Below, in pieces: positions 1 to 38,039 of a stretch of DNA of 38,824 bases (the first letter of the stretch is position 1; each line of letters opens with the position of its first letter). Position numbers and translations under genes: made by a program. Origin of the DNA: a virus; the IMG/VR virus record IMGVR_UViG_3300039190_000131, positions 1-38,824 of that record; one strand, given 5' to 3'. The notes under the pieces are model-generated. The model searched no databases. It was not told the DNA's origin and worked only from the letters and a program-made list of their open reading frames with translations.

Positions 1-79
1 ACCCGGATTAAGTGGCAACTGTACCGCCGCCACTAGAAGTTACGTCTGTAACTCATACTTACGCTGAACCGGGGCCAAC

Positions 80-1615
80 ATGGCTTTTCCAAAGACCGCA
101 GATGCAATTGTCCAGAAGCCCATGATCGGGTTGGACACGTGGAACAACAAACGGCACAACGCGCTGCTCAAACAGGGCACGGAGTTCATGAATCGGTCGG
201 CTTCGATCGCTATCGAGAACTACATCCCCGAACAGTACCTGCTTACCCACTGCACCATCATTGCGTCGGTTGACGTGGATACTCCCAACGTCAAGACGGG
301 AGAGGTGGAGGAAGACGGTCAGAAGATCAACCGGCCCCACGCTGATTACCTGATCAAGCCCGACTGCAACAAGTATATCAACCAGAACGGTGATGCTTGG
401 GAACGCAAACTCCTGATGTCTACCTACAAGACCTTTGTAGGCGCTGAGAACTATGTAGAGCACATTCAGATCCCTGAGCTATCCAAGGGCAAGGTGATCG
501 ACGCTGTTGCCCGTGACTTGGGCGATACGGTCTACATTGACATTCTGGTAGCCACAGACCGCAGTCACGAAGATCTCGTACGCTCCATCGAGGCCGGGGA
601 ACTCAACACCCTCTCGATGGGTTGCACAATTGCCTACTCGGTATGCACCAAGTGCGGCAACAAAGCTGCAGACGAGACAGAGCTGTGCCGCCACATTAAG
701 TACGAGAAGGGTAACAAGTTTGTTGGCCCCAACGGTAAGATCCGCATCGTCGCAGAACTTTGCGGACACCACACAGATCCCGACTCGGTACACTTCATTG
801 AAGCCTCATGGGTAGGAAACCCTGCATTCAAGGGTGCTGTCCTGCGGAACGTCCTCGACTTCAATAAGCCAGAGACAAAAGAGCCTACTCCCTATGAGCA
901 CGACCAGCTACAGAATCTGATCCAGCAGGCGCACACAGCTACACCTACCGCTGATTGGACGGATGCCTTCCTCAAGACAGCTTCTGCCCAGATCCGTAGC
1001 GAGATCCGTGAGGAACTCTCTGCGTTTGCCAATCGTAACGCTTTTGGCGGCGGCGGTGATGATGAAGAGGAAGAGGATAGCGGCGGCGGTGATGAAGGCG
1101 GCGCTATTGAGGAAGTCTCGGATGAACTCAAAGAGAAAGTCAAGAAGAAGGTTATCCGGGACCTCAAAGACGAGATGAAGAAGGAAGATGGCGGAAACGG
1201 TGGACCTCCAAATGAGGACACAAAAGCCATGCCCGAAGCAGAACGTGCTCCGAACGATTCGATCCATCACTCCTACAAGCTGTTTGCCTCTCATTATCTG
1301 AATGAGATTGGTGACGACAAACGTACCAAAAGGGCATTCGCTATCCTGCGCTTGATGCAAAAGGATAACGTCTTCCTTCAACACAAGAGCAGATTTGCCA
1401 ACACAGATATTGTGACGGCAATGTATTTGTATGATCGGGACGGATTGAAGAGCCCGCAGTCTAGGGATCTCTATCTGTGCCTTCAAAAGGTAGGGGGAGC
1501 GTCTAATTACAGTAGTCTGCGGGAGTTCTTGGGTGCATGTATTAAATCGCTAGGCCGAAAGCCCTCTCAAAAAGAGGCGCTATTTCTGATCAAGAGAGCA
1601 AAAATTCTCAACTAA
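80..1615 (+). CDS. Prohead maturation protease, possibly with scaffold-like C-terminal extension
   Basis: This 511-residue protein looks like a capsid maturation serine protease of the HK97/T4 prohead-protease superfamily. Visible elements are VEHIQ with candidate catalytic His128, followed by SKGKVIDAVAR; NTLSMGC with candidate Ser179; and EASWVGNPAFKGAV (about 241-254), which matches the conserved E-x-S-x-V-x2-PA-x3-A segment after the catalytic Ser. A Cys/His cluster (C189-x2-C192, C203, H205) may bind zinc. The region 325-375 is very acidic and Gly-rich, and the last 115 residues are an unrecognised globular-looking extension. The protein is longer than stand-alone proteases, which suggests fusion to core material. 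K299-T-A-S302 matches the putative cleavage signature also seen in the capsid protein and scaffold, so it may process itself. It sits just ahead of the scaffold and capsid genes, as in many phages. The catalytic assignment is by motif only. Confidence 0.72.
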   Translation: MAFPKTADAIVQKPMIGLDTWNNKRHNALLKQGTEFMNRSASIAIENYIPEQYLLTHCTIIASVDVDTPNVKTGEVEEDGQKINRPHADYLIKPDCNKYINQNGDAWERKLLMSTYKTFVGAENYVEHIQIPELSKGKVIDAVARDLGDTVYIDILVATDRSHEDLVRSIEAGELNTLSMGCTIAYSVCTKCGNKAADETELCRHIKYEKGNKFVGPNGKIRIVAELCGHHTDPDSVHFIEASWVGNPAFKGAVLRNVLDFNKPETKEPTPYEHDQLQNLIQQAHTATPTADWTDAFLKTASAQIRSEIREELSAFANRNAFGGGGDDEEEEDSGGGDEGGAIEEVSDELKEKVKKKVIRDLKDEMKKEDGGNGGPPNEDTKAMPEAERAPNDSIHHSYKLFASHYLNEIGDDKRTKRAFAILRLMQKDNVFLQHKSRFANTDIVTAMYLYDRDGLKSPQSRDLYLCLQKVGGASNYSSLREFLGACIKSLGRKPSQKEALFLIKRAKILN

Positions 1616-14627: not shown

Positions 14628-15586
14628 TCATGGCCTATATCTACCGCAGAAAAACCAACCTCGTTGATATGCTGATCGAGGACCACTTCTGGCTCAAGGT
14701 CTCCGTAGCTGACGGGATTGGGAGTACAGGAGACTACACGCTGATTCTAGGCGACCTTACGTTCGTGGAGACAGACCCCGCTTCTGGTGCAGACGATTCA
14801 GGGACTCTGGCGACTGGACTCAAGGATCAGATCAACGCAGCGTCGGAACCTATCACAGCTTTTGATGGGGCAGCCACTGGCGAGATCCTGATTCGGTACG
14901 ACAAGTACAACCAGAGCCCGGCTGGGATCACCAACCAGAACTTCGAGTACGAGGCCAGCACTACGGACGATGATGGTGAGATTTCCGTGAAGGAGATCCT
15001 CCCGGCGTCTTACAAGTTCAAGAACGCCGCCAATTGGGATGGTACCTTCACAGATATGGAGACGATCTCCTTTGTCAAGGGGAAGAGGTCTACACGTTTC
15101 CGACCGTCTGAGATGCTGGTAGCCAACCAAGTGAGCGCCAATCAGTTGCGTGGGCGAACTAGATTTCTCTTCGACCCGGCTGACTATGCTCTGGTAGACG
15201 AGGACGTTCTCTTCTACAAGCTGTCTACAGTGGTTGATGGAGTAGAGATCGAGGATGGACCTATCCAGATCCTGCTCACCTCGCAACAGTTGATCCAACC
15301 ACGAGCGGTCCTCCTGCTTAACGGTAACACACCTCAGGGAGCGTCCTATGATGATAGGTTGGAGATTCAACTGCCCCGTTACATCGTCGATATGACGATC
15401 AAGAACACGGGGACAACCAACGACTTGAAGGTGTCTTTTGGTGCCGGTTCCGCAGAGCTTACGGTTTCCCCTTCCAGCAGTTTCGGGGATAACCGCCTGA
15501 ATGTGTCTCAGTTGGATATGAGAGCAGTGGGTGGGACTACGGCCACAGAGGTATACATGGTTCTCGCTACGAACTCCTCTCTATAA
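14624..15586 (+). CDS. Probable virion structural protein, 320 aa
   Basis: This is a beta-rich protein with YIYRRKTNLVDMLIEDHFWL at the start, a Thr/Asp/Gly-rich middle and a strand-rich C-terminus (VDMTIKNTGTTNDLKVSFGA). There is no signal peptide. Composition and location suggest a head-tail or tail component, but no family is recognised. I take the GTG at 14624, because GAGG lies close upstream and the stop is overlapped by four bases; an ATG two codons later is equally possible. Confidence 0.6.
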   Translation: MIMAYIYRRKTNLVDMLIEDHFWLKVSVADGIGSTGDYTLILGDLTFVETDPASGADDSGTLATGLKDQINAASEPITAFDGAATGEILIRYDKYNQSPAGITNQNFEYEASTTDDDGEISVKEILPASYKFKNAANWDGTFTDMETISFVKGKRSTRFRPSEMLVANQVSANQLRGRTRFLFDPADYALVDEDVLFYKLSTVVDGVEIEDGPIQILLTSQQLIQPRAVLLLNGNTPQGASYDDRLEIQLPRYIVDMTIKNTGTTNDLKVSFGAGSAELTVSPSSSFGDNRLNVSQLDMRAVGGTTATEVYMVLATNSSL

Positions 15587-15653
15587 GATGGCTGGTCGTT
15601 AAAGTTTTAATATTCTCTCTCAGAGAGTTCTACTCAAACCCGTGGAGGCTTCT

Positions 15654-16280
15654 ATGCTCATTCGATTGGTTCACCAGCAGGGGGACGTTAAAGGTCCTTT
15701 GCTGATCACAGACATTGATTCCGGGCTCCCAAATGAGGAGCACGGTCTATCTCGTAAGCAGCCGGTCTACGTCCCGGTGCACCGCACTTACTTCGGCAGT
15801 GATAATATGGTCAAAATTGACCGTACCAAGGCCGGGTACATTGACCTAGCTCCCAGCGACAAGGTTCGCCTGTCGGCTGATAGGGGTGTTATCAAGGGCC
15901 TAGAGGATAACGGTTTCCTTTCGGTAACTGAGATCCCTACTGGTGCTCTCGATAAGCCTACGATCACAGCAGCTACGTTTGATACTACTGCTGGAGCTGA
16001 CGATGGTGTGGGTACCGCTGATGATGGATCTATCGTCATCACTGGAACCAATTTCACCTCGTACGATCCCTCAACCACCGCTATTATCGTAGGTAATACG
16101 GGTGCTAACACGCCGGTCCCCCTCTCAGAAGATACTGCGGGCGTGACGGTTACGGACACTGAGATTACAATCACAGGAGCTGCGAACCCTTATGGTTCGG
16201 CATCAGGTGATATTGAGACGGTGATTGTGGTTGCTAACGACAAGGCATCCGACACCTTCTTCCCCGTGACCGAAGTCTAA
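15654..16280 (+). CDS. Probable virion protein with Ig-like/IPT-type domain, 208 aa
   Basis: The N-terminal half contains PVYVPVHRTYFGSDNMVKID and SLGARS-free beta segments ending VIKGLEDNGFLSVTEIP. The C-terminal half (about 105-208) reads like an IPT/TIG Ig-like fold: DDGSIVITGTNFTSYDP, then TEITITGAANPYGSASG and IVVANDKASDTFFPVTEV. IPT-type domains are common on phage virion surfaces. The ATG at 15654 is 5 bases from GGAGG, better than an in-frame GTG four codons earlier. Confidence 0.6.
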   Translation: MLIRLVHQQGDVKGPLLITDIDSGLPNEEHGLSRKQPVYVPVHRTYFGSDNMVKIDRTKAGYIDLAPSDKVRLSADRGVIKGLEDNGFLSVTEIPTGALDKPTITAATFDTTAGADDGVGTADDGSIVITGTNFTSYDPSTTAIIVGNTGANTPVPLSEDTAGVTVTDTEITITGAANPYGSASGDIETVIVVANDKASDTFFPVTEV

Positions 16281-16300
16281 TCTAACCCTCTGGGTAATTG

Positions 16301-16663
16301 ATGGATGCGGAACAAGCTCAAACACTACGAGGCGCTCTCGCACAGCATCGTGCGGAGTTCCACGGTATCGACTGGCGGCCAAGGCGGCTGGTCGATACCA
16401 ACGTCGTGTCGACGCTTTTGGAAGTCGTGACGGAGTTTGTGTCTGAGGTTTTGGAGTTACCACTGGATGGCCTGCCAACATCGGGTCGCTTGATGAAGTA
16501 CCAGAAGGAACTTCAAGTGGCTTATGAGCAGATCAGAAGGAACCGATTGTATAATCAGGCTGAGTTCTTCCAGCAGATCGGATTAGTATTCGAGTTGGTA
16601 GGCAAGGTCTTCGAGGATTTGGCGCGTTTAGAACGCATGGGTCACTTAGACCCTTCTAATTAA
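16301..16663 (+). CDS. Unknown helical protein, 120 aa
   Basis: This is a helical protein with AQHRAEFHGIDWRPRRLVDT near the start and a long amphipathic C-terminus (LQVAYEQIRRNRLYNQAEFF). No family is recognised. It starts at ATG 16301; a TTG one codon earlier is less likely. It is located in the structural run, 20 bases after the Ig-like protein gene. Confidence 0.6.
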   Translation: MDAEQAQTLRGALAQHRAEFHGIDWRPRRLVDTNVVSTLLEVVTEFVSEVLELPLDGLPTSGRLMKYQKELQVAYEQIRRNRLYNQAEFFQQIGLVFELVGKVFEDLARLERMGHLDPSN

Positions 16664-16677
16664 ACAGGAGAAAACCA

Positions 16678-17142
16678 ATGGCTAGAATTAGCGTAGTAGG
16701 AACCCCTTTCGAGAAAGTACTTCTTTCCGATCTGGACAAGAAGCAGAGCCTTCGTGAGCACACGATCAACCCTCCGGGACAGGAGCGGTATATCAATCCC
16801 ATCGACAAAGATGCCCTGAAAGAAACCCTTCAAGGTGCTGTGTCAGGTGGAACGGCTGTTCAAGACAGCCATGTTGAGACATTCATTGCCGATACGGTAG
16901 GGGCTGATGATATTTCTACCACTACTCTCGTCAATAAGGTGGGCACGGTCGCTACTGCTGTTGGTGGGACCCCTGCTGTTGTTGGAGGTCTTGGTGAGTC
17001 TCTGCAGGATCATGTTTCGTACTCGTTCGTCGAGACGGGGCACTTCCTCCTTTCCTTCAACGGTGGTGTCCTCAAGGGCCTCGTGGATCTGGGATGGATC
17101 AAGGTATTCACCGACGCTGGTGACGCCCTCTTCAGCCTGTAA
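16678..17142 (+). CDS. Probable virion protein, 154 aa
   Basis: The sequence has MARISVVGTPFEKVLLSDLD, then REHTINPPGQERYINPIDKD and a Gly/Thr/Val-rich C-terminal half ending in HFLLSFNGGVLKGLVDLGW. It is beta-type with no membrane segment. The family is not recognised. The ribosome site AGGAG lies 6 bases before ATG. It is likely structural by composition and context. Confidence 0.55.
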   Translation: MARISVVGTPFEKVLLSDLDKKQSLREHTINPPGQERYINPIDKDALKETLQGAVSGGTAVQDSHVETFIADTVGADDISTTTLVNKVGTVATAVGGTPAVVGGLGESLQDHVSYSFVETGHFLLSFNGGVLKGLVDLGWIKVFTDAGDALFSL

Positions 17143-21228: not shown

Positions 21229-22554
21229 GTGCCTAAAGACAGGAAGCCTACAACTAAGGAGCGCCAGAACCCTACGCACCCGCTCCCTCCTTTGAATTCG
21301 AGTGCCATCTGGTCCTTTGCCTCGCAACAGAAGGCTATTGACCTGTATTGGGATGATCCTGCAGCGATCCCCAATAACTCCGGCTTCGATATTCTGGGGG
21401 TCAATGTGTACCGGTCCTTCGACTCTGAGTACGGACCCTATTTTCGTCTGAACCAGAATCCGATCGGGGCAACCTTCTACAGGGATGCCACGACCATTGA
21501 TGACGTGGTGGATGAAAATGTGTCCACTCGATTCCTCGCTAGAGGGGACGAGAACGGCGATTGGATCTTCCGGGTCCAGAACTACCCGATGGTCAAGCCG
21601 GGCGATCCTAAGGTAACTGCAAACAGCGCAGACGACGTGACGGTCACAATTGATGGACAGGAAGTGAAAGCAGCTCGTGTCTATGGTGAGACCGGTGAAG
21701 TACAGCTCCAGACGGCCTACGAATATGATGCTGCTACCAATCAGCGAAATGATCCTGTGCTGCCACACGCTAACTCAGTGGTGACGTGCTCGTACTCTTA
21801 CAATACGAACCTGATCTCCAACGAGCTATTCCAGCGTACCTTTTACAGGATCACAACGGTTGGGTACGATCAGTGGGACGGCCAACTCAAAGAGACTCCG
21901 CTCAACTGGACGAGCGCAGTTCATATCCACGAGACAGAGAAGCTAGATTACATCTGGAAGGATGCGATCAGGCGGAACCGGTGGATTCTTGATCAAGGTG
22001 GGGAGAGGGTCAAGGCCTTTATCCACAAGTACCGAGGCGTTCAATGTGGGTGTTATGCCCGCTTTGACGATCCTCACCCCTACAATCAATGTGAGGTGTG
22101 CTTCGGCACCGGGGTGAAGGGGGGATATGAGGGTCCGTATGAGATCCTTCTGGCTCCCGCAGACGGAGCACGGTCTATTCGCCAGTCGGATAGAGGTCGA
22201 GGCGAGGAAAAGACCTACAATACATGGACAGGACCACAGCCCCTTATGTCTCAGAGGGACTTTATCGTCAAGCTCAATGGCGACCGGTACTCGATTGGTC
22301 CGGTGTCGATGCCTACGAACAGGGGCACGGTATTGCAACAACATTTCGATGTGAACCTTCTCGCCAAGAATGACATTCGCCATCTTGTGCCTGTGACGGG
22401 CACAGATAGCTTGGCATTCCCTGAGACGAGAACAATGGATCACGAGGACGACCCGGATGAAACCCGGTATCCTCAGATCACAGACAGTGATTCCTCCCCT
22501 GACGGGATTGAGGAACGAGGCCGCACTCCGGTGTGGGAGAATATCAATAGTTGA
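21229..22554 (+). CDS. Virion structural protein with FN3-like and Ig-like modules and a Cys cluster
   Basis: This 441-residue protein has an FN3-like start (QKAIDLYWDDPAAIPNNSGF; ILGVNVYRSFDSEYGPYFRL). An Ig-like module follows (about 110-195: FRVQNYPMVKPGDPKVTANS, DDVTVTIDGQEVKAARVYG) that is clearly related to the repeats of the tail sheath. Next are a four-Cys cluster (QCGCYARFDDPHPYNQCEVC, then FGTG) and a conserved C-terminal domain with SQRDFIVKLNGDRYSIGPVS. I recall the C-terminal arrangement from large myophages but not its exact role; neck, baseplate or tail completion are options. It starts at GTG without a clear ribosome site, right after a terminator. Confidence 0.6.
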   Translation: MPKDRKPTTKERQNPTHPLPPLNSSAIWSFASQQKAIDLYWDDPAAIPNNSGFDILGVNVYRSFDSEYGPYFRLNQNPIGATFYRDATTIDDVVDENVSTRFLARGDENGDWIFRVQNYPMVKPGDPKVTANSADDVTVTIDGQEVKAARVYGETGEVQLQTAYEYDAATNQRNDPVLPHANSVVTCSYSYNTNLISNELFQRTFYRITTVGYDQWDGQLKETPLNWTSAVHIHETEKLDYIWKDAIRRNRWILDQGGERVKAFIHKYRGVQCGCYARFDDPHPYNQCEVCFGTGVKGGYEGPYEILLAPADGARSIRQSDRGRGEEKTYNTWTGPQPLMSQRDFIVKLNGDRYSIGPVSMPTNRGTVLQQHFDVNLLAKNDIRHLVPVTGTDSLAFPETRTMDHEDDPDETRYPQITDSDSSPDGIEERGRTPVWENINS

Positions 22555-24338: not shown

Positions 24339-24992
24339 GTGGAGAAATTTCTAGTCATTGAGGGGAAGGTTGTTGGCGGCCACAGGCTTGCCGACTTAGG
24401 TGTGGACGTACCTTACCAAAAAGAGGTTACGCTCAACTACGACCGGGCCAATTGGAGCCGTGATTTGAATCACGCTCTCCAGAACGGCCAAGTCAAGAAG
24501 GTGAGGGTGATCAGCGGTAATGAAATGTCTACCCGTAAGCCGACGCCTAAGAAGAAGAGGAAGGTGACGCCGAAGAGGCCCAAGTCGCCTACCCCGACCC
24601 AGCAGGTGAGTGCTGAGCCTGAGAAGTCCGCTCCCACGAGCGAGGAAGAAAACAAGCGGCTACGGAAGATGAACGAGGATCTTATAGAGCGAACCAACCA
24701 GCTCTTTGAGCAGCAACAGAAGCTAATGGAACAGCTCTCCAACTTCATGGAGCAACCTCCTACTCAATACGTACCTACCAACCAGCCTCTTGCTTCTGGA
24801 TCTACCACGCAGGAAGAGGACGAAGATGATACTCCGACCTTCATCCCATCGAAGATCCGCTCCGGTAAGGCGAAAGCCAACAAGGGGAGTGAGGTAGAAG
24901 CTGAGAGGAAGGAGAGTAAGAGCTTTGCTAGTGCTGCGGAAGCCCTCAAGGCGATGCGGCAGGGACAAGAGGACGAGGACGACAATGAGTGA
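24339..24992 (+). CDS. Unknown structural-type protein with coiled coil, 217 aa
   Basis: The N-terminal 60 residues (FLVIEGKVVGGHRLADLGVD, then VPYQKEVTLNYDRANWSRDL and KKVRVISG) form a small conserved-looking domain. It is followed by a Lys/Pro-rich linker, a coiled coil (ENKRLRKMNEDLIERTNQLF) and an acidic disordered end. I start at GTG 24339 (AAGGGG, 6 bases), because the longer frame begins inside the previous gene. It overlaps the next gene by 8 bases. The function is not recognised. Confidence 0.6.
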   Translation: MEKFLVIEGKVVGGHRLADLGVDVPYQKEVTLNYDRANWSRDLNHALQNGQVKKVRVISGNEMSTRKPTPKKKRKVTPKRPKSPTPTQQVSAEPEKSAPTSEEENKRLRKMNEDLIERTNQLFEQQQKLMEQLSNFMEQPPTQYVPTNQPLASGSTTQEEDEDDTPTFIPSKIRSGKAKANKGSEVEAERKESKSFASAAEALKAMRQGQEDEDDNE

Positions 24993-26898
24993 TCTCCCTA
25001 AAAAAGTCGCAGCTACCTTCATGCTCGACCTCTTGGTTGATCGTAAGGCAAGGGTAGCTTCGGCCCACACGATGGAAGAAGCCTTTGGGCAGTTTGACGA
25101 GCTGGTGGATGCTATCTCTGACGAGCCTGAGATGATGGGTGACGTCATTGAGTCCCTTGTGAACATGGGCGACCTACGGTATGAGGATGGGGCTTTTTAC
25201 TACAAAGATGGCCTCAAACTTGGCTCACAAGGACGACCCGTGCTTGCTGATAAACACAAACAGTCAATCGCCCTGATGCGGTTTCTCTCAAACGTCGCAT
25301 CGAAGTACGGTGTAGGCGAGCACGTCTACGTCGTAGGCGGTGCGGTACGTAACTTCGTTATCGACCGTCCTATCAAAGACATTGACGTTGTTATTGACTC
25401 CGTAGCCCTAGACGGCAAGGGGTCTGAGTGGTTCGCTAAGGCCCTCGAAAAGGCTATTCCTGCTACCACGTCCCTGCAGACCAACCAGTACGGTGTGGCT
25501 ATCCTCACGGTCAACGAGGAGTGGTTGCTGGATGGTACCAACCTGCAAGGGGAGGTTATCGAGATAGCGAATGCCCGTAAGGAATCTTACGGTGGGGAAG
25601 AGGGCAAGGGTTACAAACCGCACATGGTCGAGCCCTCCACTATCGAAGAGGACATTGAGCGTCGTGAATTCACCTTCAATACGCTCCTGTGGCAGCTCTC
25701 TGAGTTGGCTCAGGGACCGGACAAGGCTGAAATCATCGACCTGACGGGTTGCGGCCTCGACGATCTGGAAGAGGGTGTCATGAAGTGCCCCTCCGACCCG
25801 GACAAGACCTTCTCCGATGACCCGACCCGTATGCTTCGGGCCGTCAAGTTCATGGTCAAGTACGGTTTCAGGATCGACCCCATTGTTGAGGATGCGATTC
25901 GTCGGAACGCCCAGAAGCTCAAACAGGCTCCGCAGAATGCTATCAGTGAGATCCTGATTAACGACATTCTCCAAATGAGCCAGTCCAAAAAGACGCTCTC
26001 CGTACTCAAAGAGCTGGGGCTCCTAGACGTCGTGGCCCAGATGCTCGAAAAGGACAAGGCCTTCCGTAAGACGCTGGCGAATTGGGCGTCACGGGATGCT
26101 AAGATCCTCTTCCTGTTCGATATGATGGAAATAGGCCTTCCTCTACACAGTAGGCTGCGCTTCCTCGATGATGCTCAGATGGCCCGGCTACGACAGGTCG
26201 CTATAGAGCTTGACGCCAAAGAGGCGGATAGCTTTGTGGACCTCTTGAAGCAGCCGGGCCGCCAGATGGATACCCGTGAGCTACTTACGGAGTTCGATCT
26301 CCAAGGGCCGGAAATCCGAAACCTTATGGGGACTGCCCGTGATGTTCTTCTGGAGCAGCCCTCTCTGCGTAAGAGCCCTCGAAAACTGACGGAGGCGGTC
26401 CAGAACCGTTACCGCTCACGTATCTCCAAGGTCGCCGGGTACTACGACATTCCGAAGAAGAAGCCGACCATTGAAGAAGTGGTCCGTCTGTGGATGGAAG
26501 GGCACAAAGGGCTCGATGCAAAGATCCACGGCTACTATGACGTGAGAGAGCTGTGGCCCCTTCGTGAGTACACGTGGGACCGAGACTCTGCACGTGGTGG
26601 TATGATGAATATCGACGGGGAGTGGAAGGACCTCCGGGGTCCTCAGAAGTGGGATGCCCTGAAAGCTGATATGAAGAAGAACGGCTGGCGCAAAGAAGAG
26701 CAGCCGCTCATTCTCCAAGTCGGCAAAGACGGGAAGGCCAAAGTCAGCGAAGGGAACCACCGCCTTGCTCTGGCTCGTGAGCTTCGGATGCGAAAGGTAC
26801 CGGTCATGTTTGACTTCCGTACCTCTGTGTCGGGAGGCAAAACGGTCGTGGATGACTCCCCCTCTGTGGACGATCTGCTGGACCAGATGGGCTTTTGA
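24985..26898 (+). CDS. tRNA nucleotidyltransferase-like protein with ParB-like C-terminus
   Basis: The product has 637 residues. Residues 35-79 form a winged-helix-like segment (DELVDAISDEPEMMGDVIES). The class II nucleotidyltransferase (CCA-adding/poly(A) polymerase) core follows: VYVVGGAVRN (G118-G-A-V-R122), D132-x-D134 in RPIKDIDVVID, then RREFTFNTLLW and DDPTRMLRAVKF. A helical RNA-binding-type region continues to about 400. The C-terminal part (about 545-612) ends with SEGNHRLALARELRMRKVPV, which matches ParB/sulfiredoxin-type domains. No HD domain is visible. The fusion inside a structural gene run is unusual; tRNA repair during infection or RNA tailing are possibilities. Start: ATG 24985, overlapping the previous stop. 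Confidence 0.75.
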   Translation: MSDLPKKVAATFMLDLLVDRKARVASAHTMEEAFGQFDELVDAISDEPEMMGDVIESLVNMGDLRYEDGAFYYKDGLKLGSQGRPVLADKHKQSIALMRFLSNVASKYGVGEHVYVVGGAVRNFVIDRPIKDIDVVIDSVALDGKGSEWFAKALEKAIPATTSLQTNQYGVAILTVNEEWLLDGTNLQGEVIEIANARKESYGGEEGKGYKPHMVEPSTIEEDIERREFTFNTLLWQLSELAQGPDKAEIIDLTGCGLDDLEEGVMKCPSDPDKTFSDDPTRMLRAVKFMVKYGFRIDPIVEDAIRRNAQKLKQAPQNAISEILINDILQMSQSKKTLSVLKELGLLDVVAQMLEKDKAFRKTLANWASRDAKILFLFDMMEIGLPLHSRLRFLDDAQMARLRQVAIELDAKEADSFVDLLKQPGRQMDTRELLTEFDLQGPEIRNLMGTARDVLLEQPSLRKSPRKLTEAVQNRYRSRISKVAGYYDIPKKKPTIEEVVRLWMEGHKGLDAKIHGYYDVRELWPLREYTWDRDSARGGMMNIDGEWKDLRGPQKWDALKADMKKNGWRKEEQPLILQVGKDGKAKVSEGNHRLALARELRMRKVPVMFDFRTSVSGGKTVVDDSPSVDDLLDQMGF

Positions 26899-27960: not shown

Positions 27961-28875
27961 TTGTCGTTTGAAGATAAAGTTAAAATAGGTAAGTGTGGAC
28001 GTAAATCTATAGACAAAGTCGATCTTGAAAAGGCTCTACAACTTGATCCTGATACTACACACTCAAAATTGGGGAAACTATTTGGATGCAACGGAAAAAT
28101 CATCAGTCGTGAGTTGAAACGACATGGTTTGCGCACCAAAAAGTGGTGTGAACGTAAACATTCAGAAGAAACCAAAAAGAAGATCAGCCAAACACGCATT
28201 GAATCAGGTATTGCTGAAGGGAAAAATAATCCTAATTATGGAGACAAAGATCGCCCTTGGTTAGTGGGAGATGAAAACCCGTTACGCCAATGGCACAAGG
28301 AAAACCCCGATTTTGGTGATAATCAGAAAGGCAAAAATAATCCTATTCATCAGGTGAAACATTTGTATGATGATCCTGAATATGTGAAACGAATCACTCG
28401 TGGGATTAGAGCACATGTAGATGAAAAACGTGGCAGTACCTATGAAGAAGTTTACGGGGAAAAGCAGGCTAAAGAATACAAGCAAAAACTTAGAGAAGCC
28501 TCACCAGCACGCATCTCTAAAATCAAGCAATCTGAAACTAAGCCCGAGAAACTCGTTAAAGAGTTATTAGAGAGTTTAGATGTAGTGTATGAATCTCAGG
28601 CTGTAGTGGGCTATTACACTGTAGATTTTTTGCTGCCTAATCAGGACGTGGTTGTGCAAGCAGACGGAGATTTCTGGCACGCTAATCCAGAGTTTTATGG
28701 GGATGACGAATTATATGCACTGCAAAAGAAGAACCGTAGGATCGACGCGTCTTGTAATTCGTTTTTAGAGGACCGTGATTACACGGTTGTTAGGTTTTGG
28801 GAGAATGACCTTTATAATCATTTGGATGAATGTAGGTCCGAATTGGTGCAACACCTAGGAGATGTAGGTGAGTAA
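27961..28875 (+). CDS. Vsr-like homing endonuclease with HTH and NUMOD-type motifs
   Basis: The 304-residue protein begins at TTG with AGGAG 9 bases upstream. Residues 15-58 are an HTH. Residues 66-130 contain HSEETKKKISQTRIESG and repeated G-K-N-N-P elements, typical of NUMOD3-type DNA-binding repeats. The C-terminal domain (about 193-300) has VDFLLPNQDVVVQADGDFWH (D222, D235, D237, H240) and NRRIDASCNSFLEDRDYTVV, then RFWENDL, the pattern of very-short-patch-repair-like (EDxHD) homing endonucleases. The gene is visibly AT-richer than its neighbours, which points to transfer. Its stop overlaps the actin-like gene's GTG, so it sits exactly between two phage genes. Confidence 0.8.
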   Translation: MSFEDKVKIGKCGRKSIDKVDLEKALQLDPDTTHSKLGKLFGCNGKIISRELKRHGLRTKKWCERKHSEETKKKISQTRIESGIAEGKNNPNYGDKDRPWLVGDENPLRQWHKENPDFGDNQKGKNNPIHQVKHLYDDPEYVKRITRGIRAHVDEKRGSTYEEVYGEKQAKEYKQKLREASPARISKIKQSETKPEKLVKELLESLDVVYESQAVVGYYTVDFLLPNQDVVVQADGDFWHANPEFYGDDELYALQKKNRRIDASCNSFLEDRDYTVVRFWENDLYNHLDECRSELVQHLGDVGE

Positions 28876-31033
28876 GAAAAAGAAAGAAGAAAAACAGACG
28901 GAAAAATCTGGTGAAGATGTTGAGGGAAGCAAGGCGACGAAAGAAGTCAAGCCTACTTTGGGATGTTCCGTAGATATCGGTACGATGAATCTTGTGTCCG
29001 CTCGTAAGATCGGTACGTCGATTGAAACCAAGCGCGTTCGAGATGCCTTTCTCGACGTCGATTCCGACCGCAAGAAGATGTTGAACCTCCGGGGCACTAG
29101 CTACGTCGAGTATGAGGACCAGCTCCTCATTCTGGGTGATGCTGCGATGGACCTCGCTCAGTTGCTCAAAACTGAGGTTCGGCGTCCGCTATCCCAAGGT
29201 CTGATCTCCGCATCCGAGATTGATGCTCTCGAAGTCCTCTCCATCCTTATCGAGCAGGTAGTGGGGGAACCGCAGGAAGCTGGGGAGCACTGCTACTACT
29301 CCATCCCCGCTGCACCTCTAGATATGCCCGACCAAGACGTTGTGTATCACGAGGCTGTGTTCGGCCAGATCCTAGAGGAGCTGGGGTACAATGCTATCTC
29401 CGGTAACGAGGCGATGGCTATCGTCTATTCGGAGTGCGCTCAGGATAGTTTCAGCGGTATCGGCATCTCCTTCGGGTCCGGTATGGTTAACTGTGCTCTC
29501 TCGTACATGACCATGCCTATCATGGAGTTCTCATTGGCTCGATGCCTGTCTAAAGATTTCCCGATTGATACGCCTTCTGGTATGAAACCAGTTTCGGGAA
29601 TCCGACCCGGTGACTTGGTATTAGGTCAGGACGGAGCATATACCGAAGTCCTAGAAGTATTTAACAACGGGCATCGTGAAGAACTTTATCAACTCCAACT
29701 AGAAGGTCTGCCCTTTGCACCGGTTGATGTTACAGGTGATCACAAAATTAGTGTTCGCCGTGGCGCTCAGTGGGAGTGGGTAGCAGCACAGGATGCTCGG
29801 GAGGGGGACATCGTAGGGGTACCTCGTATCCCCTACCGTGGGAACCACAGCTCGTACTATTTTTGCCGGGAAGATGGTCAAAATGTCACGGTTACGAAGT
29901 CTCGCAACTTGGGTAGATTTTTGGGGATGTTCTTAGGGGATGGCAGCACCTGTCTTTATAAGAACGGACAGGGCAATTCTGGGGGTCGAGTTCGTTTGGC
30001 GTTTAACCGGAAGGATGCACAACTGGTCCAGAAATACCAAGATGTTATTAACGACCTCTTTGGTCGGTTTCCATCTGTGGTGTCTAGGACTGAGGTTGAA
30101 ATGGATCTTATCAACCTTGAATACCATAAGATTGCAGACCATCTCAAGAGTAAATGTTATAATGGGGTGGGGGATAAGATCCTCCCGCTTCCTGTACACG
30201 AAATTCCCGATCAGATGGCAGTAGGGGTACTAGAGGGTCTATTAGATAGTGACGGGTCACGGACGGAAAAAGGTTTCGAGTTTTATAACACGTCTGAGAC
30301 TCTTGTCCGCAGCATGAGTCACCTTCTGAATAGATTTGGCATCTGGCATACAATCGAGAAACGAGATCCAAGGCAAGGTGGTGTAAACTCAAGAGGAGTT
30401 CAGATCGAGGGCCGTAAGGATTCTTACACAGTTCGTATCAGAGATGCGGTAGCGGTTTCCGTGTTGGGAGCCCTTATTTCCAAGGAGGGCAACTCTTTGC
30501 GGTACCCCTCTGGGCATTTTGCGGAAAGGAAAGTGCTTTCCGTTGAGACTATCCCCTATGACGATGATGTGTATGATATTTCCATTGGAGAATCCCATCA
30601 TGCTTTCGCGACGTGGGGTGCTGTCGTACACAACTGCGGCGACTGGATTGACCAGAACGCTTCGAAGGCTGTGGGTTCGACCGCTTCCCGCCTCTGTTCC
30701 ATCAAAGAGAAAGGGATAGACCTCACGAACCCTCAGAGCCGTGAAGAGGAAGCGATTGTCGTCTACTACAAGGCGCTGATCAAGTACGCCCTCGACAATA
30801 TCGGCAAGCAGTTCAAGAACACACAGAATGACACGGAACTCAAAGAAGCTATCCCCATCATCGTGTCCGGGGGAACATCGTTGGCCGGTGGATTCCTCGA
30901 ACTGTTTTCCGAAGTGTTTGAGAAGCAGCGTAAGAAGTTCCCGATTGAGATCAGCGAGATCCGAATGGCAGAAGATCCCATGACCTCTGTGGCTCAGGGT
31001 CTTCTGGTTCAGGCACAGCAAGAGTACCTCTAA
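28868..31033 (+). CDS. Actin-like ATPase precursor interrupted by an intein
   Basis: The precursor has 721 residues; removal of the intein (residues 226-589) leaves a 357-residue actin/Hsp70/MreB-superfamily ATPase. Extein motifs are a charged N-terminus (1-30), phosphate-1 CSVDIGTMNLVSA (33-45), phosphate-2 GIGISFGSGMVN (197-208) and, after the intein, adenosine motif IIVSGGTSLAGGFLELFSEV. The intein splits the conserved 'G-G-D-x-x-D' element: ligation gives LAR-CGDWID, where Cys replaces the first Gly and serves as +1 nucleophile. Phage actin-like proteins are known to form filaments that position DNA or virions; that role here is inferred. GTG start overlaps the homing endonuclease stop. 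Confidence 0.82.
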   Translation: MSKKKKEEKQTEKSGEDVEGSKATKEVKPTLGCSVDIGTMNLVSARKIGTSIETKRVRDAFLDVDSDRKKMLNLRGTSYVEYEDQLLILGDAAMDLAQLLKTEVRRPLSQGLISASEIDALEVLSILIEQVVGEPQEAGEHCYYSIPAAPLDMPDQDVVYHEAVFGQILEELGYNAISGNEAMAIVYSECAQDSFSGIGISFGSGMVNCALSYMTMPIMEFSLARCLSKDFPIDTPSGMKPVSGIRPGDLVLGQDGAYTEVLEVFNNGHREELYQLQLEGLPFAPVDVTGDHKISVRRGAQWEWVAAQDAREGDIVGVPRIPYRGNHSSYYFCREDGQNVTVTKSRNLGRFLGMFLGDGSTCLYKNGQGNSGGRVRLAFNRKDAQLVQKYQDVINDLFGRFPSVVSRTEVEMDLINLEYHKIADHLKSKCYNGVGDKILPLPVHEIPDQMAVGVLEGLLDSDGSRTEKGFEFYNTSETLVRSMSHLLNRFGIWHTIEKRDPRQGGVNSRGVQIEGRKDSYTVRIRDAVAVSVLGALISKEGNSLRYPSGHFAERKVLSVETIPYDDDVYDISIGESHHAFATWGAVVHNCGDWIDQNASKAVGSTASRLCSIKEKGIDLTNPQSREEEAIVVYYKALIKYALDNIGKQFKNTQNDTELKEAIPIIVSGGTSLAGGFLELFSEVFEKQRKKFPIEISEIRMAEDPMTSVAQGLLVQAQQEYL
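29543..30634 (+). mobile_element. LAGLIDADG-containing intein, 364 aa
   Basis: The element runs in frame from Cys1 (TGC 29543) to Asn364 (AAC 30632-30634), followed by Cys+1. Splicing blocks are visible: CLSKDFPIDTPSGMKPVSGI (block A), VTGDHKISV with T64-G-D-H67 (block B), VYDISIGESHHAFATWGAVV ending H-N (blocks F/G). Two LAGLIDADG helices, FLGMFLGDG (about 126-134) and LEGLLDSDG (230-238), keep their acidic residues, so the homing endonuclease looks active. The nucleotide composition is somewhat richer in A/T than the exteins. Confidence 0.9.
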
Positions 31034-31824: not shown

Positions 31825-33588
31825 TTGTACCACTACCTCACAAGAGCAGTCAAGAAGCGGATCATGGAGACGCTTCGCTTCTGCTTCGATGCCAACCCCC
31901 GGCATCGGGACGTGGTTAAGCACATTCGAGAGAAGTACGAGTTCTCAGAGCGGCCCCAGAAAGGGATCGTCGTTCAGAGTGCTAGTGCTACTCCGAGGTC
32001 CCTGTCGGCTGACAATTACATGGGGACCCTCTACTCTCACGTGATGCTGGCACAGGTAGACTCCCATCGTGGTGCGTCTATTGAGTGGGTACGAGAGGAC
32101 GATAGGGCTATCCGAGATAATGGTGGCGCTTTCCCTACAGAGCCGGGCGTCTACTATATCCAGATCGAGGATATTACGCCCCAAGGCGACGTACCTGAGT
32201 TCCAGTTCTGGGTTGACCCTCTACTTACAGAGTATGACGAGCCTGTGATCACCTTTGACACAGGCACCGAGACGAACGCTATTCTAGCGCACGCTCCTGT
32301 TCTAGAGGACTCTGTAAACCTCTATCACTACCCGGACGCCCTACTCTTCGAGGGAACGGCCCTCACCTTTAGGGCGGCACAGAGCCTCTACATCGGAGGG
32401 TCTGAGACCGATCTACTTCTGGGCCACGAGGAAGGATACGTATCCGTCTCCACTCAAACGCAATCAGGACCGTTCACGATCCAGTCTACGACCAACACGC
32501 TAGAGCTGGAAATCAACGGGACCCCTATCACTGTGACTCTGCCTACAGGGAACCTTCTAGCAGACGAGGTGATGGACGAGATCGTAGCAGAAGCAATGTC
32601 AGAGAGTATTGACGGGACTACCTATTCCGTGAGTGTAAGCTCGAATGCCGTGACTATCGAAGCGGATCAGAGCCTACAGGTTGGTACAGGGTCTGCGAAC
32701 ACACCGCTGGGACTTAGCAGCGGCTACGTAGCTCCCGAAGTCACGGGGCTCATGGTGCAGCCGCATGTACCTGCGGACGCCACCTTTCAAGCGGTAGTTG
32801 ACGGCACCACACACCAGTTCACCCTGCTATCAGGAAATAGAGAAGTAGACTCTATCGCCCTAGAAATAGAGCAGGCGTTTTCGGCCACCTCTCTAACGGT
32901 CGATACAGCGCCGGGCGGCGACTATAGCTTGGACCCGGCTACAGGGGAGATCACTTTTCTCCACGACTTCGAGCCGGGCACGAAGATTACAGCGGACTAT
33001 AAGTACCCGGATGATTCCCAAGGTCCTTTCCCTATCGGCGGGGGTGAAGTCTCAAATAGCGAGGCCATTCCGGGCGTAGTCATTGCCTTCGGTACCCATC
33101 TGGAGGACGGTGACGTGATGGCGATCGTCGTAGAGGAGGAACGCTCCGATGTGTCTGACGTGTATGGGGGCAAGTTCGATATGTCGCTCGACTTCGACAT
33201 TATCGCACGTGACTCGATGACACGAAGCGAAATGGTAGACCTCATTATTATGTACCTGTGGCAGTGGCGACGTGAGAGGTTGGCCGAAGAAGGGATCATT
33301 ATCGAGAGCGTCTCGATGGGTGGTGAGTCTGAGGAACCTTACGATGATACAGGTGACGACTACTACTATCTATCGAGCATCTCCCTTTCCCTGATGACGG
33401 ATTGGGAGATCCACATAGCCAAGCCACTTCATATCAGACGCATCACGCCTACCACGTACGACTATGATGCCCGTATGGCAGAGCGCAGCTATATGGAAGA
33501 GCGGCCTGATCTCTTCCTTACATCTGAGATGGACCTATCGCAGGTCTATTTGGTGGATGGCAAGGGTGGGATCGAGCGTATCCGCTAA
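31825..33588 (+). CDS. Beta-modular virion structural protein, 587 aa
   Basis: The N-terminal 60 residues are helical (ITETLRF-type start, then RHRDVVKHIREKYEFSERPQ). A beta region with GVYYIQIEDITPQGDVPEFQ follows. A module at about 210-310 (GPFTIQSTTNTLELEINGTP, ending GSANTPLGLSSGYV) clearly matches one in the tail sheath (GPYEIVAGTNDVLSLEVDGD, ending GSANSTLGFLAGQ). The last 200 residues (MAIVVEEERSDVSDVYGGKF; DLIIMYLWQWRRERLAEEGI) form a different, alpha/beta domain. A head-tail or tail-terminator-linked structural role is likely but not proven. It starts at TTG 31825 after AGGG; ATG 31864 is an alternative. Confidence 0.6.
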   Translation: MYHYLTRAVKKRIMETLRFCFDANPRHRDVVKHIREKYEFSERPQKGIVVQSASATPRSLSADNYMGTLYSHVMLAQVDSHRGASIEWVREDDRAIRDNGGAFPTEPGVYYIQIEDITPQGDVPEFQFWVDPLLTEYDEPVITFDTGTETNAILAHAPVLEDSVNLYHYPDALLFEGTALTFRAAQSLYIGGSETDLLLGHEEGYVSVSTQTQSGPFTIQSTTNTLELEINGTPITVTLPTGNLLADEVMDEIVAEAMSESIDGTTYSVSVSSNAVTIEADQSLQVGTGSANTPLGLSSGYVAPEVTGLMVQPHVPADATFQAVVDGTTHQFTLLSGNREVDSIALEIEQAFSATSLTVDTAPGGDYSLDPATGEITFLHDFEPGTKITADYKYPDDSQGPFPIGGGEVSNSEAIPGVVIAFGTHLEDGDVMAIVVEEERSDVSDVYGGKFDMSLDFDIIARDSMTRSEMVDLIIMYLWQWRRERLAEEGIIIESVSMGGESEEPYDDTGDDYYYLSSISLSLMTDWEIHIAKPLHIRRITPTTYDYDARMAERSYMEERPDLFLTSEMDLSQVYLVDGKGGIERIR

Positions 33589-33628: not shown

Positions 33629-34087
33629 GTGGCAGTTTTTGAATATGAATGTGGTAGTTGTGGCCTTCGGAAGGAGAAACTTTTTCGGAGCGAGCCCCCG
33701 GACCATATTGAGTGTCCTGCCTGTAGCAAGGAAGCCCGACGTATGTTGTCGGACTTCGGTTTTCAGTTTGCTGACGGGAAGGTGCTGGGTAATACCGGAG
33801 TAGACTCACTGGATAACGATCACGATAAAGCAATTGGTCGTGATGCAAAAACCCGGTGGGAGTACGTCAAAGATCGGAATTCGCGGAAGAGAAAGATTCA
33901 GCGAGAGGTCGCTGGCAAAGATGGTGAGGCTAAAGTTCCTCTTCAGCTCAACCAAGACGGGGAATATGAGCCTTTGCCTGAATCTGGACTAGATCGCTTT
34001 AGGAAGCTCCACACTGAGTACGATCAGATGCTTACTGAGCATCGTAAGGAGCGGCGTGAAGCGGATAAGACCGGACAAGAGGAATGA
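33629..34087 (+). CDS. FmdB-like zinc-ribbon protein (second of two)
   Basis: MAVFEYECGSCGLRKEKLFR with C8-x2-C11 and HIECPACSKEARRMLSDFGF with a second C-x2-C is an FmdB-type zinc ribbon. A charged helical tail (TRWEYVKDRNSRKRKIQREV; RKLHTEYDQMLTEHRKERRE) follows. The architecture parallels the gene at 14232, including FGFQFADGK in place of GVQFCFKGD, so the two are likely paralogues. GTG start with a full AAGGAGG 6 bases upstream. It precedes the tail sheath. Confidence 0.7.
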   Translation: MAVFEYECGSCGLRKEKLFRSEPPDHIECPACSKEARRMLSDFGFQFADGKVLGNTGVDSLDNDHDKAIGRDAKTRWEYVKDRNSRKRKIQREVAGKDGEAKVPLQLNQDGEYEPLPESGLDRFRKLHTEYDQMLTEHRKERREADKTGQEE

Positions 34088-34163: not shown

Positions 34164-37100
34164 GTGGCAAATGGCCCATTTGAAAGTTACGCTCCTCCCG
34201 GAGTCTACACAAGAACTCAAGTAGAACGGGACACGTCGGGACCGCCGACTGGCAACCGCATCCCTGTTCTCGTAGGTGTAGGCCGGGAGACGCTCTCGCA
34301 GAGTGAATTGGAACTGGTACGTGGATCTTCTGGATCTGTGGACCAGCGAATCGTCGATGAAGACGTGAATGAACGCTTCATTCTAGACGACTCCAATCCC
34401 TCCAATCCAGTCCTTGGTTCTAAGGACGGAGAGGTTGCCAAATTCCAAGTTCAAAACTATCCGCTCGTAACCGGCAACGGACGTGGTGCTGTCACCAATG
34501 ATCCGCAGCAGGTTACTGTAACTGTTGACGGGGCTCTTGTACAGCCTGCCGCCGTTGATGGTTCACGTGGTGTTATCACCCTTCAGGTAGCCCCTGCCGA
34601 AGATGCAGAGGTGCGGGCCACGTACTTCTTCAACCGTACCGACACACAGGCCGAAGATGACCTGTCTGGTCAGGTTACGGACGAGAAGGCCCTTCTTCTG
34701 GGCGCTATCACTGGCCCCTACGAGATTGTGGCGGGCACGAACGATGTGCTGTCCCTCGAAGTAGATGGGGATTCGGTAACGGTCGATCTTACGGCTGGAG
34801 CCGTACGTACGGCTGCCAACATTGTCAGTGACATTACAGCCGCAGCCATCGTAGGCTTGACTGCTAGTGTCGATACTGACAACCAAGGTAACGATCGAGT
34901 CCAGCTCGAAGCTGATGCCTCTTTGGCTATCCTCAGTGGATCGGCTAACTCGACGCTTGGCTTTCTGGCGGGACAGAAGAGCAACCGCAACCGTGTGTTC
35001 CACACTTTTCAGAGCCCGCTTGTTACCGGTGACAATGGTGGCGTGATCACTACAGATCCCGCTGACGTTACGGTATTCGTGGATGGCACTCAGGTAGTGC
35101 CTTCGGAAGTAGACGGAACCAATGGTTCGGTGACTCTAGCTCAGGCCCCGGCAGTCGGAGCTAAAGTAGTTGTACGTTACTACTACAACACATGGCAGGA
35201 TACCTTCGACCACCTCCCGAATACGGGAATCCGTCGTGTCCACCGTGTGGGTATCAGCCCCGGACGTACGGACTACATTGAAGGTCAAGACTATGTGGTA
35301 GATTCCAATGGCCGTATCCTCTGGGGATCGGCTGCTACGGTTGAGTCCGGCCAGCACACTGGCGGCGCAGAGTTCTTCGACGATACACAGATCAGCACCA
35401 CGCTGGTCGACAATCGTATGTACTTTGAAGAGGTAGAGCGCTTTGTGAATCGCTCGACCACGCCCGCTCAGGTTTCCAATAACACGGTGGTTCTCTCGAA
35501 CATGCCAACGATTGGTAATGGCCGGAGCACCACGCTGGATTCCGACCTCTACGGTAGCCTCTCAAGCAACCGTGCCGGTGTTCTCACACACCGCCCGGAG
35601 CTAGTGAAGGTCTATCATGGTGTGACAGAGGTTGACGCTCAGGCGGCAGGCCCTGTTGAAGTGGTAGACGTAGATCCTGCGACCCGCAAAGTAACGGTTG
35701 CAGAAGAGATCCCGGCCAATCATAAGGTCTGGGCTACCTACTGGTACAACAGGCTTCAAGACGACACTCTTACCTTCTCAGTGCTATCGGCCTCCACGGC
35801 TACTAGTGCTGGGCAGTATGAGGTCAACAGCTCGCTACTTGGTGAGTCCCTGTACGACGTAAGGTTCGGTACCAAGAGTAACACCTCCTTCACGGTACAG
35901 TGGCCCTCCGGTGTGGAGTCGAGCCCTGATGCCTTTGTGACGGGAACCGATGGTGTAGACGAGACGGTGACGGTCACGTTCACCAGCCTTGCTGCTCAGG
36001 CGGCTGTATTCGTTAACTCCGAGGTAGGTCCGTACGACCTGTATTCCGGGGCAAGTGATACGCTTGATCTTGACGTGGACGGTAATTCAATGTCCATCAC
36101 CCTCAGTGGTGATGCCATTAACCAGCCTGCGGAGCTTACAGGTGACGCCCTTGTGGAAGCCGGGCTAGATTCCCTCGACGCCGCAACAACTGCGGACTTT
36201 GAGGTGTCTGTCAACGGCGTAGAGTTCACGGTGGATCTTACTGGAGTGACCTTCGTGGACACTTCTGTTACCACAGACTGTGCTACCACGTTGGCCGCAG
36301 CCATTGATACCGTGATTACAGCGGAGGGTGCTGCAACTGCAAACGGCTCTCAGCTAGTAATCACGTCTAACGACGATGGACCCAATAGCAGCGTCGAGAT
36401 TCTCGATGGAAACGCTAATGAGTGGGTTGGTTTTGAGGAAGGCGATGCTGCCTCTCAGCACCGTCCCGATGCTGCCGATATTGCAGCCGGTCTTAACGCC
36501 GATGGTACTTTCGGCCCCGCTGCTACAGCGGATACCGTAACGGTTGCTGGGGAAGGTACATACCTTCGTATCACCAGCGATACCACGGGATCAAGCAGCA
36601 CGCTGGCGTTCACGGGCGGTAATGCACTGAACGACACAGGCCTTGGTATCGAAGCCGGTGATGGTGCGACGGGAACGGACGCATCTGACGGCTTCAACGT
36701 AACCTCCAGCCGCAATGACGGCCTTGGTTCCTCTGGTTCCGGCGTTGTAGGACAGACCTACACCGATGATCAGACGGGCCTTCGCTTCACGGTGCTGGAG
36801 CCTACCACCGGTGACTACCCGGATGCTGAGAGCTTCACGCTTGATGTTACGGACACGTTCACCACAGGCAATGCCGTTGTGGTGCGCTCTGTACCCGGCC
36901 TAGAGGTTACGGTTGACAACACCACTGACGTGGGCGTTGGAGATACAGCTCTGGTCAAGACCTACAACAAGAGCGGCGAAGAGCCGGGCATTGGTGATTT
37001 CTACTATATCACCTACGAGTACGAGAAGTCTGACTTCTCCACTCGCCTGTTCACTCGCTTCCGGGACATTCAGCGTAACTACGGTGAGCTGAGCCCGAAT

Positions 37101-38039
37101 AACCCGCTGACGATGGCCTCCTACCTCGCTATTCTTAACGGAGCGGTGATCGTAGGTTGCAAGCAGGTTCTTAAAGAGCCGGGCTTCAATCAAGCCACGT
37201 CGCAGTCCTACCTCGACGCTCTAGAAGAGCTGGGCAAGCCGCTGACTGCAGGCAATACCCCGGACCTCTTGGTGCCGCTCACGTCTGATCCCGATGTTAT
37301 GGGCGCTTACGTAAGGCATTCTGAGATCCAGTCGAGCCAGCGGTTCCGTCAGGAACGTCGCTGCATCTTCGGTGTCTCTTCGGGTACACGCCCAGAAGAG
37401 GCTAAGGAGATCGCAGAGGGACTTGGTAGCTCACGAGCTATTCTGGCCTACCCGGACAGCGCAATCGTCTCACTGACGAACGAGGCCGGTCAGGAAGAGA
37501 GCTTCATCGTAGACGGTACTTATATCGCAGCCGCCCTCGCAGGTGTGCTGGTAAGTCCGCAGTTCGATGTGGCTACTCCGCTCACTCGCCGTCGTCTCAC
37601 AGGATTCCGTCGCCTCAATCGGGCAATGGATTCCGTCGAGATGAACCAGCTTGCTGTGTCCGGCGTTACGGTCCTCGAAGATAAGGGTACGTTCCTGCAA
37701 GTGCGTGACGGTCTGACAACAGACGTGTCCACTCGCTTCACGAGCACACCCTCCATTGTTGCTATTCAGGACCACGTAGAGCAGCAAAGCCGGAACTCTC
37801 TGGATCGGTTCATCGGGCTAAAGCATATCACGTCGCGTGCTCAGGACGTAGAGCTTGCCCTCACCGGCCTTCTCAACTCGCTCAAAGAGCAGCAGATCAT
37901 TGCTGACTTCAAGGGCGTACGAGCTGAGCCTGACCCGGACGACCCTACGACTCTGCGAGTGACGGCGTTCTACGCTCCGATCTTCCCGCTCAAGTACATT
38001 CCCATCATGTACCAGATCGGAAGCACTAGCTCACTATAA
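34164..38039 (+). CDS. Tail sheath protein, exceptionally long (1291 aa)
   Basis: The ends identify a contractile tail sheath: FESYAPPGVYTRTQ at the N-terminus, and at the C-terminus EESFIVDGTYIAAALAGVLV, TPLTRRRLTGFRRLNRAMDS, VLEDKGTFLQVRDGLTT and FYAPIFPLKYIPIMYQIG. Sheaths are usually some 400-900 residues. Here about 800 residues of beta modules lie between: Ig-like copies near 70-165, 275-350 and 415-535 (VTVTVDGALVQPAAVDGSRG; VTVFVDGTQVVPSEVDGTNG), and 'GPY..tLdlDVDG'-type copies near 182-272 and from about 620. They would decorate the tail exterior. I start at GTG 34164 because GAGG lies 6 bases upstream; an in-frame GTG four codons earlier is possible. Confidence 0.88.
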   Translation: MANGPFESYAPPGVYTRTQVERDTSGPPTGNRIPVLVGVGRETLSQSELELVRGSSGSVDQRIVDEDVNERFILDDSNPSNPVLGSKDGEVAKFQVQNYPLVTGNGRGAVTNDPQQVTVTVDGALVQPAAVDGSRGVITLQVAPAEDAEVRATYFFNRTDTQAEDDLSGQVTDEKALLLGAITGPYEIVAGTNDVLSLEVDGDSVTVDLTAGAVRTAANIVSDITAAAIVGLTASVDTDNQGNDRVQLEADASLAILSGSANSTLGFLAGQKSNRNRVFHTFQSPLVTGDNGGVITTDPADVTVFVDGTQVVPSEVDGTNGSVTLAQAPAVGAKVVVRYYYNTWQDTFDHLPNTGIRRVHRVGISPGRTDYIEGQDYVVDSNGRILWGSAATVESGQHTGGAEFFDDTQISTTLVDNRMYFEEVERFVNRSTTPAQVSNNTVVLSNMPTIGNGRSTTLDSDLYGSLSSNRAGVLTHRPELVKVYHGVTEVDAQAAGPVEVVDVDPATRKVTVAEEIPANHKVWATYWYNRLQDDTLTFSVLSASTATSAGQYEVNSSLLGESLYDVRFGTKSNTSFTVQWPSGVESSPDAFVTGTDGVDETVTVTFTSLAAQAAVFVNSEVGPYDLYSGASDTLDLDVDGNSMSITLSGDAINQPAELTGDALVEAGLDSLDAATTADFEVSVNGVEFTVDLTGVTFVDTSVTTDCATTLAAAIDTVITAEGAATANGSQLVITSNDDGPNSSVEILDGNANEWVGFEEGDAASQHRPDAADIAAGLNADGTFGPAATADTVTVAGEGTYLRITSDTTGSSSTLAFTGGNALNDTGLGIEAGDGATGTDASDGFNVTSSRNDGLGSSGSGVVGQTYTDDQTGLRFTVLEPTTGDYPDAESFTLDVTDTFTTGNAVVVRSVPGLEVTVDNTTDVGVGDTALVKTYNKSGEEPGIGDFYYITYEYEKSDFSTRLFTRFRDIQRNYGELSPNNPLTMASYLAILNGAVIVGCKQVLKEPGFNQATSQSYLDALEELGKPLTAGNTPDLLVPLTSDPDVMGAYVRHSEIQSSQRFRQERRCIFGVSSGTRPEEAKEIAEGLGSSRAILAYPDSAIVSLTNEAGQEESFIVDGTYIAAALAGVLVSPQFDVATPLTRRRLTGFRRLNRAMDSVEMNQLAVSGVTVLEDKGTFLQVRDGLTTDVSTRFTSTPSIVAIQDHVEQQSRNSLDRFIGLKHITSRAQDVELALTGLLNSLKEQQIIADFKGVRAEPDPDDPTTLRVTAFYAPIFPLKYIPIMYQIGSTSSL

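Follow-up and report, generated by a model that had tools for sequence, protein, structure and literature searches.

Large Multi-Domain Sheaths in Described Phages

Contractile tail sheaths considerably larger than those of model phages have already been described. In a 2022 study, Evseev et al. modelled sheaths with five or more domains and lengths of up to 1283 aa (PMC9230969). According to the accessible text of that study, the added domains are often Ig-like and lie away from the tube, with adhesion, appendage formation or stabilisation proposed as their roles, and the overall plan of the sheath was compared with that of flagellin (Evseev et al., 2022; PMC9230969). Type 3 sheaths in this scheme have three or more domains with the extras placed between the core parts, and occur mostly in phages larger than 100 kb; examples include the sheaths of LacPavin_0818_WC45 (1283 aa), Mad1_20_16 (1248 aa) and Atu_ph07 (1086 aa). 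Thus, on the text available for that paper, both large multi-domain sheaths and the idea that they serve adhesion were published in 2022, and neither is new.

Two further systems are useful for comparison. In T4 gp18, domain III is formed by residues 20-87 and 346-510, and domains I and II (88-345) lie further outward (PMC8570332). The Tunturiibacter phage Tunturi_5 has been isolated, and the accessible part of its description reports a contractile tail of 167 nm, observed in both the extended and the contracted state, that is typical for myoviruses; no mention of a tail fringe was found in that text.

A Sheath Core Assembled From Both Ends of the Chain

The window analysed here comprises an entire virus record of 38,824 bp that is probably a fragment; it contains the following gene:

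34164..38039, plus strand: tail sheath protein gene, stop included; 1291 aa, GTG start

The frame is open throughout, and its predicted product has a mass of 136.5 kDa and a pI of 4.2. A Shine-Dalgarno-like stretch, AGGTGAGG, lies directly 5' of the GTG at 34164, and the nearest upstream in-frame GTG (34152) falls within it. The initial annotation had assigned this gene to a tail sheath, and the assignment held up well. In tblastn searches of phages, full-length relatives were found in isolate phage Tunturi_5, where the protein is annotated as "tail sheath" (E 2e-59), and in a 485-kb uncultured phage (E 5e-111). Relatives of the C-terminal part, from about residue 944, included the sheaths of phage G and of mycobacteriophages such as Phabba and Phrappuccino. 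A scan of IMG/VR then yielded 358 loci encoding relatives, of which 80 were kept.

The standard sheath ends that had been proposed are also borne out, and correspond to two segments:

34164..34388, plus strand: N-terminal sheath core part (aa 1-75, with a YAPPGVYT motif); fixed length, conserved, aligned in the model from about residue 30 with phi812 from about residue 32
36972..38036, plus strand: C-terminal sheath core (aa 937-1291); matched by profile, solved structure and model

In profile comparisons, the family profile matched the Phabba, Phrappuccino and phage G sheaths at 99.7-99.9% over residues ~937-1286, and the C-terminal core profile retrieved the solved sheath of Staphylococcus phage 812 (phi812) at 2.1e-9. 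The latter match came with the profile; a single-protein sequence search of solved structures gave nothing useful. Structure prediction, which had been suggested as a check, recovered the sheath core from both ends of the chain. The AlphaFold2 model, built from residues 1-1200 (the last 91 being omitted) with 46 relatives, has a mean pLDDT of 84.2 and a pTM of 0.58, so the placement of domains relative to each other is uncertain. By VIA-align, this model matched the phi812 sheath with a Z of 26 and an rmsd of 2.4 over 225 aligned residues (30..1193 versus 32..487), and T4 gp18 (3foa) with a Z of 17.5 (28..1156 versus 21..510). All of the matches listed were contractile tails or injection systems, with both chain ends pairing with one sheath core. 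Foldseek agreed, and its matches also included other sheath models of 1117 and 1137 aa. The product of 34164-38039 is therefore a contractile tail sheath protein in which residues 1-75 and 937-1291 constitute the standard core.

Two other origins for the unusual chain were considered. Fusion of two genes during assembly is ruled out by relatives from many contigs, each with one continuous frame in the same order. A prophage origin is unsupported: in a one-genome-per-species collection, relatives were found on only two contigs, both in metagenome-assembled bins.

Composition of the Insert

Between the core parts lie ~860 residues of beta-modules (76-936), ~760 of which (76-838) precede the last module, E; the initial reading had put the insert at roughly 800 residues. 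As judged from sequence, the insert is composed of fixed modules in the order A1-A2-C1-A3-D1-E together with two slots, delimited as follows:

34425..34649, plus strand: module A1, beta-sandwich (aa 88-162); Pfam DUF2460 3.7e-9, C-terminal part of that family
34677..34979, plus strand: module B1, flagellin D2/FliD fold (aa 172-272), occupying slot 1 between A1 and A2; AlphaFold2 model, Z 11.0 to Vibrio FlaA
34980..35198, plus strand: module A2, beta-sandwich homologous to A1 (aa 273-345); profile searches
35199..35456, plus strand: module C1 (aa 346-431); profile searches
35457..35771, plus strand: module A3, distant A copy (aa 432-536); profile searches
35772..36011, plus strand: module D1 (aa 537-616); profile searches
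36012..36677, plus strand: slot 2 (aa 617-838), with a variable array; further beta segments besides two degenerate B modules
36678..36971, plus strand: module E (aa 839-936), the final domain ahead of the core, with a last part common to the phage G sheath

With a core and at least seven modules, the chain has the three or more domains, extras between core parts, that define type 3 sheaths. As far as their published description goes, the three named examples resemble it in length, in a core drawn from both termini and in having at least five domains; they belong to large phages, as the window sheath probably does.

The Ig-like modules proposed at first inspection are recognisable in the A family. 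Within-chain profile searches identified A1 and A2 as clear beta-sandwich copies (iE 5e-16) and A3 as a weak one; C1, D1 and E are single modules. The DUF2460 (PF09343) match on A1 scored 36.8 bits against a cut-off of 30.4 and covered only profile positions 89-175 of 205. The A-module profile had no significant match among solved structures. Single-module profiles showed no homology to the phage G, Phabba and Phrappuccino sheaths except for a weak signal between E and phage G, and the idea that C1 represents the ancestral domain II is accordingly unsupported.

The GPY-type modules of the initial annotation likewise proved real: two GPY motifs were located, near residues 185 and 622, both within modules of a single family, B, of which the first adopts the flagellin D2/FliD fold. 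The same within-chain searches placed degenerate B copies in slot 2 at ~611-678 and ~675-761. A separate AlphaFold2 model of A1-B1-A2 (pLDDT 89.3, pTM 0.65) matched Vibrio cholerae FlaA 172-275 at B1, with a Z of 11.0, an rmsd of 2.1 and 92 aligned residues, and FliD topped its Foldseek list. B1 thus shares a fold with flagellin D2 and FliD D2-D3, but the likeness is limited to that outer domain and B1 lies within a phage sheath. A Pfam search with the whole protein, admitting E values of up to 1, reported no flagellin family. Other structural matches to the A1-B1-A2 model begin just before B1 and finish after it while aligning only ~70 residues; in the model, B1 therefore probably sits as an insertion in a loop of the A2 domain. 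In the accessible text of Evseev et al. (2022; PMC9230969), as available in the open-access literature, we found no description of flagellin-fold modules or of slot variation.

Position of the Insert and Number of Copies

The alignment of model residues 28-1156 with T4 gp18 21-510 indicates that the insert replaces domains I and II. Because these domains lie outward in T4, the insert should face outward as well, a prediction based on the topology of the model. Each of ten relative records (174-437 kb, none certified complete) carries a single sheath-like gene, so the extra domains should be present on every subunit, although a second, divergent sheath gene in the relatives is possible. These two observations favour the original proposal as far as outward domains on every subunit are concerned; its suggestion of adhesion to host surfaces or mucus is unsupported.

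Length Variation Among Relatives

The chain had been described as about twice the usual size. This is correct relative to T4 (659 aa) and phage G (579 aa), but not within its own family, where it is at the small end: the 60 complete relatives of the first collection span 1204-2041 aa, and the 1291 residues of the window protein exceed only Tunturi_5. The relatives come from contigs of up to 437 kb, and the window record is 38.8 kb.

Among 49 representatives, the segments corresponding to residues 1-615 and 850-1291 vary little in length, and the segment 615-850 ranges from 160 to 994 residues. Slot 2 itself measures from 0 to 980 aa among relatives. In a table with a small number of truncated or duplicated entries, total length tracks slot 2 (r 0.97), and length minus both slots is ~951. 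Averaged over sequence pairs, the identity of A2 is 0.61, that of the C-terminal core 0.49 and that of B1 0.39; slot 2, with 40% gaps, reaches 0.32. The fixed modules keep their lengths, and most show a conservation close to that of the contractile core; A2, the most conserved module of the chain, exceeds it. Sequence comparison thus suggests that slot 2, and to a lesser degree B1, behave like freely exposed, fast-changing sequence, and that they are the sole parts to do so. The order A1-B1-A2-C1-A3-D1-[array]-E-core is kept across the representatives; because the module models derive from the alignment of this same family, the order serves as a description and does not test the arrangement independently.

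Using the Tunturi_5 protein as query, a second scan extended the range downward. Two loci, L097 and L098, have frames of 940 and 925 aa that contain the scaffold but lack both B1 and slot 2, and Tunturi-like forms carry other content in slot 1, up to 200 residues long. Tunturi_5 gp326 (1204 aa) is a full-length homologue (32-34% identity) that shares the scaffold modules and likewise has a terminator gene upstream. In contrast to the window protein, its slot 1 contains at most a weak B-type module, and its slot 2 is shorter and has no B match. Bacillus phage G gp178 (579 aa) has the core and the last part of E, with 26% identity over 864-1287, but none of the modules A to D was detected in it, it lacks slot 2, and its outer domain comprises ~100 residues; the phage G sheath is 240 Å in diameter. 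In the tree, full bootstrap support joins the window protein to those of L013 (1517 aa) and L001 (1526 aa), and the adjoining group holds that of L019 (2041 aa). As these nearest kin are all longer, the simplest reading is that the window sheath has probably lost ~230 aa. The L019 relative (10788-16910 of that locus) has five B-type module matches in slot 2.

Proposed Role of the Insert

We consider it likely that the insert is a fixed, outward scaffold that gives the sheath a thicker or stiffer wall, with the slot modules as its outermost, variable surface. The protein would be the sheath subunit of a contractile-tailed phage of the jumbo type. Both ends of the chain fold into the usual sheath core, which would wrap the tube and drive contraction. 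Where T4 gp18 has its domains I and II, the chain would depart from this core to form an outward arm, built from the fixed beta-domain scaffold A1-A2-C1-A3-D1-E with two places for plug-in modules. The first, slot 1, lies between A1 and A2 and would take one flagellin-D2-type module; slot 2, between D1 and E, would take an array that grows and shrinks. The fixed scaffold would pack against neighbouring subunits, and the slot modules would meet the medium or the host. We infer the lateral packing from the kept length and core-like conservation of the fixed modules, which could also reflect folding constraints rather than contacts between subunits; exposure of the slots and any function of their surface are likewise proposals.

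The adhesion idea of the initial annotation can be developed into a coat in which the modules offer many weak binding sites for host surface glycans or for mucus, raising encounter and residence before the baseplate attaches. The accessible text of Evseev et al. (PMC9230969) raises the same hypothesis, and several features agree with it: the outward site of the insert, the frequency of Ig-like modules on virions, the outer position of the flagellin-type domain in flagella, the rapid change of slot 2, and a weak PHROG match of A1 to a family labelled as glycoside hydrolase (5.8e-4). Most of the insert, however, is fixed in length and conserved at about the level of the core, which is unexpected for host-facing adhesins, and a Pfam search matched no carbohydrate-binding family. 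Since most of the insert follows the evolutionary pattern of the core, a thick structural arm with variable tips is favoured over a general adhesin coat, which we regard as rather unlikely; adhesion by the slot modules is possible. The same conservation of A, C, D and E is also in keeping with the opposite extreme, in which the entire insert, slots included, interlocks neighbouring subunits to make a long and thick tail stiffer, without engaging any external ligand. The domain added to the phi812 sheath has been suggested to stabilise the sheath disk (accessible text of PMC9230969), but a slot that ranges from 0 to 980 aa among relatives is unlikely to form one fixed lattice contact, and we hold this reading only tentatively, if a little less doubtfully than the adhesin coat.

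In a further alternative, the arms would serve as attachment platforms along the tail for separate proteins of the fibre or whisker type. Whiskered tails are known from jumbo phages, among them CBB and Erwinia phage Y3 (PMC5259590; PMC13282480), but no partner fibre gene was identified, the whiskers of Atu_ph07, with its listed 1086-aa sheath, are described as mainly capsid-associated, and the Tunturi_5 tail is reported, in the text available, as typical for myoviruses. This makes anchoring the least probable of the alternatives. Slightly less improbable, and still speculative, is a widespread jumbo-phage sheath lineage whose sheath acts as a rod for surface display: flagellin-fold modules would be exchanged, amplified or lost at two sockets of a fixed structural arm, so that the tail would bear, over its full length, a host-facing coat able to expand.

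For the window gene itself, novelty is modest. The most interesting part is the family-wide slot architecture, in which hundreds of viruses combine one fixed domain set with one variable region, along with the occurrence of a flagellin outer-domain fold within a predicted phage sheath. In the family, one conserved core comes with a natural series of lengths between ~925 and 2041 aa, and there is a cultured relative, Tunturi_5; the effects of added modules on tail thickness, stability and adsorption are therefore directly comparable. In this way, the vague idea that large phages decorate their sheaths becomes testable.

Neighbouring Genes in the Window

Upstream of the sheath gene are genes for a capsid protein (3923-4807; PHROG 1e-51) and for a protease-like product (80-1615). 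Closer to it, or sharing its modules, are the following:

33629..34087, plus strand: conserved zinc-ribbon protein adjoining the sheath gene; Pfam Zn_ribbon_8 5.6e-9, matches in 69 fetched loci
31825..33588, plus strand: tail-terminator-like protein, 587 aa; C-terminal 402-541 matches the Tunturi_5 "tail terminator" and phage G gp177
32458..32724, plus strand: B module within the tail-terminator-like protein (about aa 212-300); iE 2.3e-13
21568..21726, plus strand: A module inside the ORF 21229-22554; iE 7.3e-10

In the terminator-like relatives of L060 and L075, the alignment flanks the B-module region and does not cross it, a pattern that suggests gain or loss of this module among relatives. 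No tube or tape-measure gene was recognised before the window end, so the tail context is partial.

A Volactin-like actin gene (28868-31033; Pfam 8.2e-70) is split at about aa 225-590 by an intein that contains a LAGLIDADG domain. Close copies of the intein-bearing gene occur in L013 and L014, and the matches in L001, L002, L017, L018 and L060 omit the intein stretch. By tblastn, the Volactin-like protein was matched in 47 fetched loci, and in those listed it lies a few kb before the sheath. Immediately preceding the intein-bearing gene is an endonuclease-like gene (27961-28875) with a weak NUMOD3 match and a Vsr/DUF559-like C-terminus, whose product is possibly a homing endonuclease. A 657-aa protein (24925-26898) carries a tRNA nucleotidyltransferase-like domain at about aa 133-377. 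Finally, six copies of a short common motif (e.g., LKEQLIKLGSDNKSLRPHIRPIL) occur in five predicted proteins of the window, starting on the plus strand at 18488, 18916, 26983, 31431, 38128 and 38341. The motif is close to the N-terminus in four, had zero occurrences in shuffled sequence, and could be a sorting or packaging tag.
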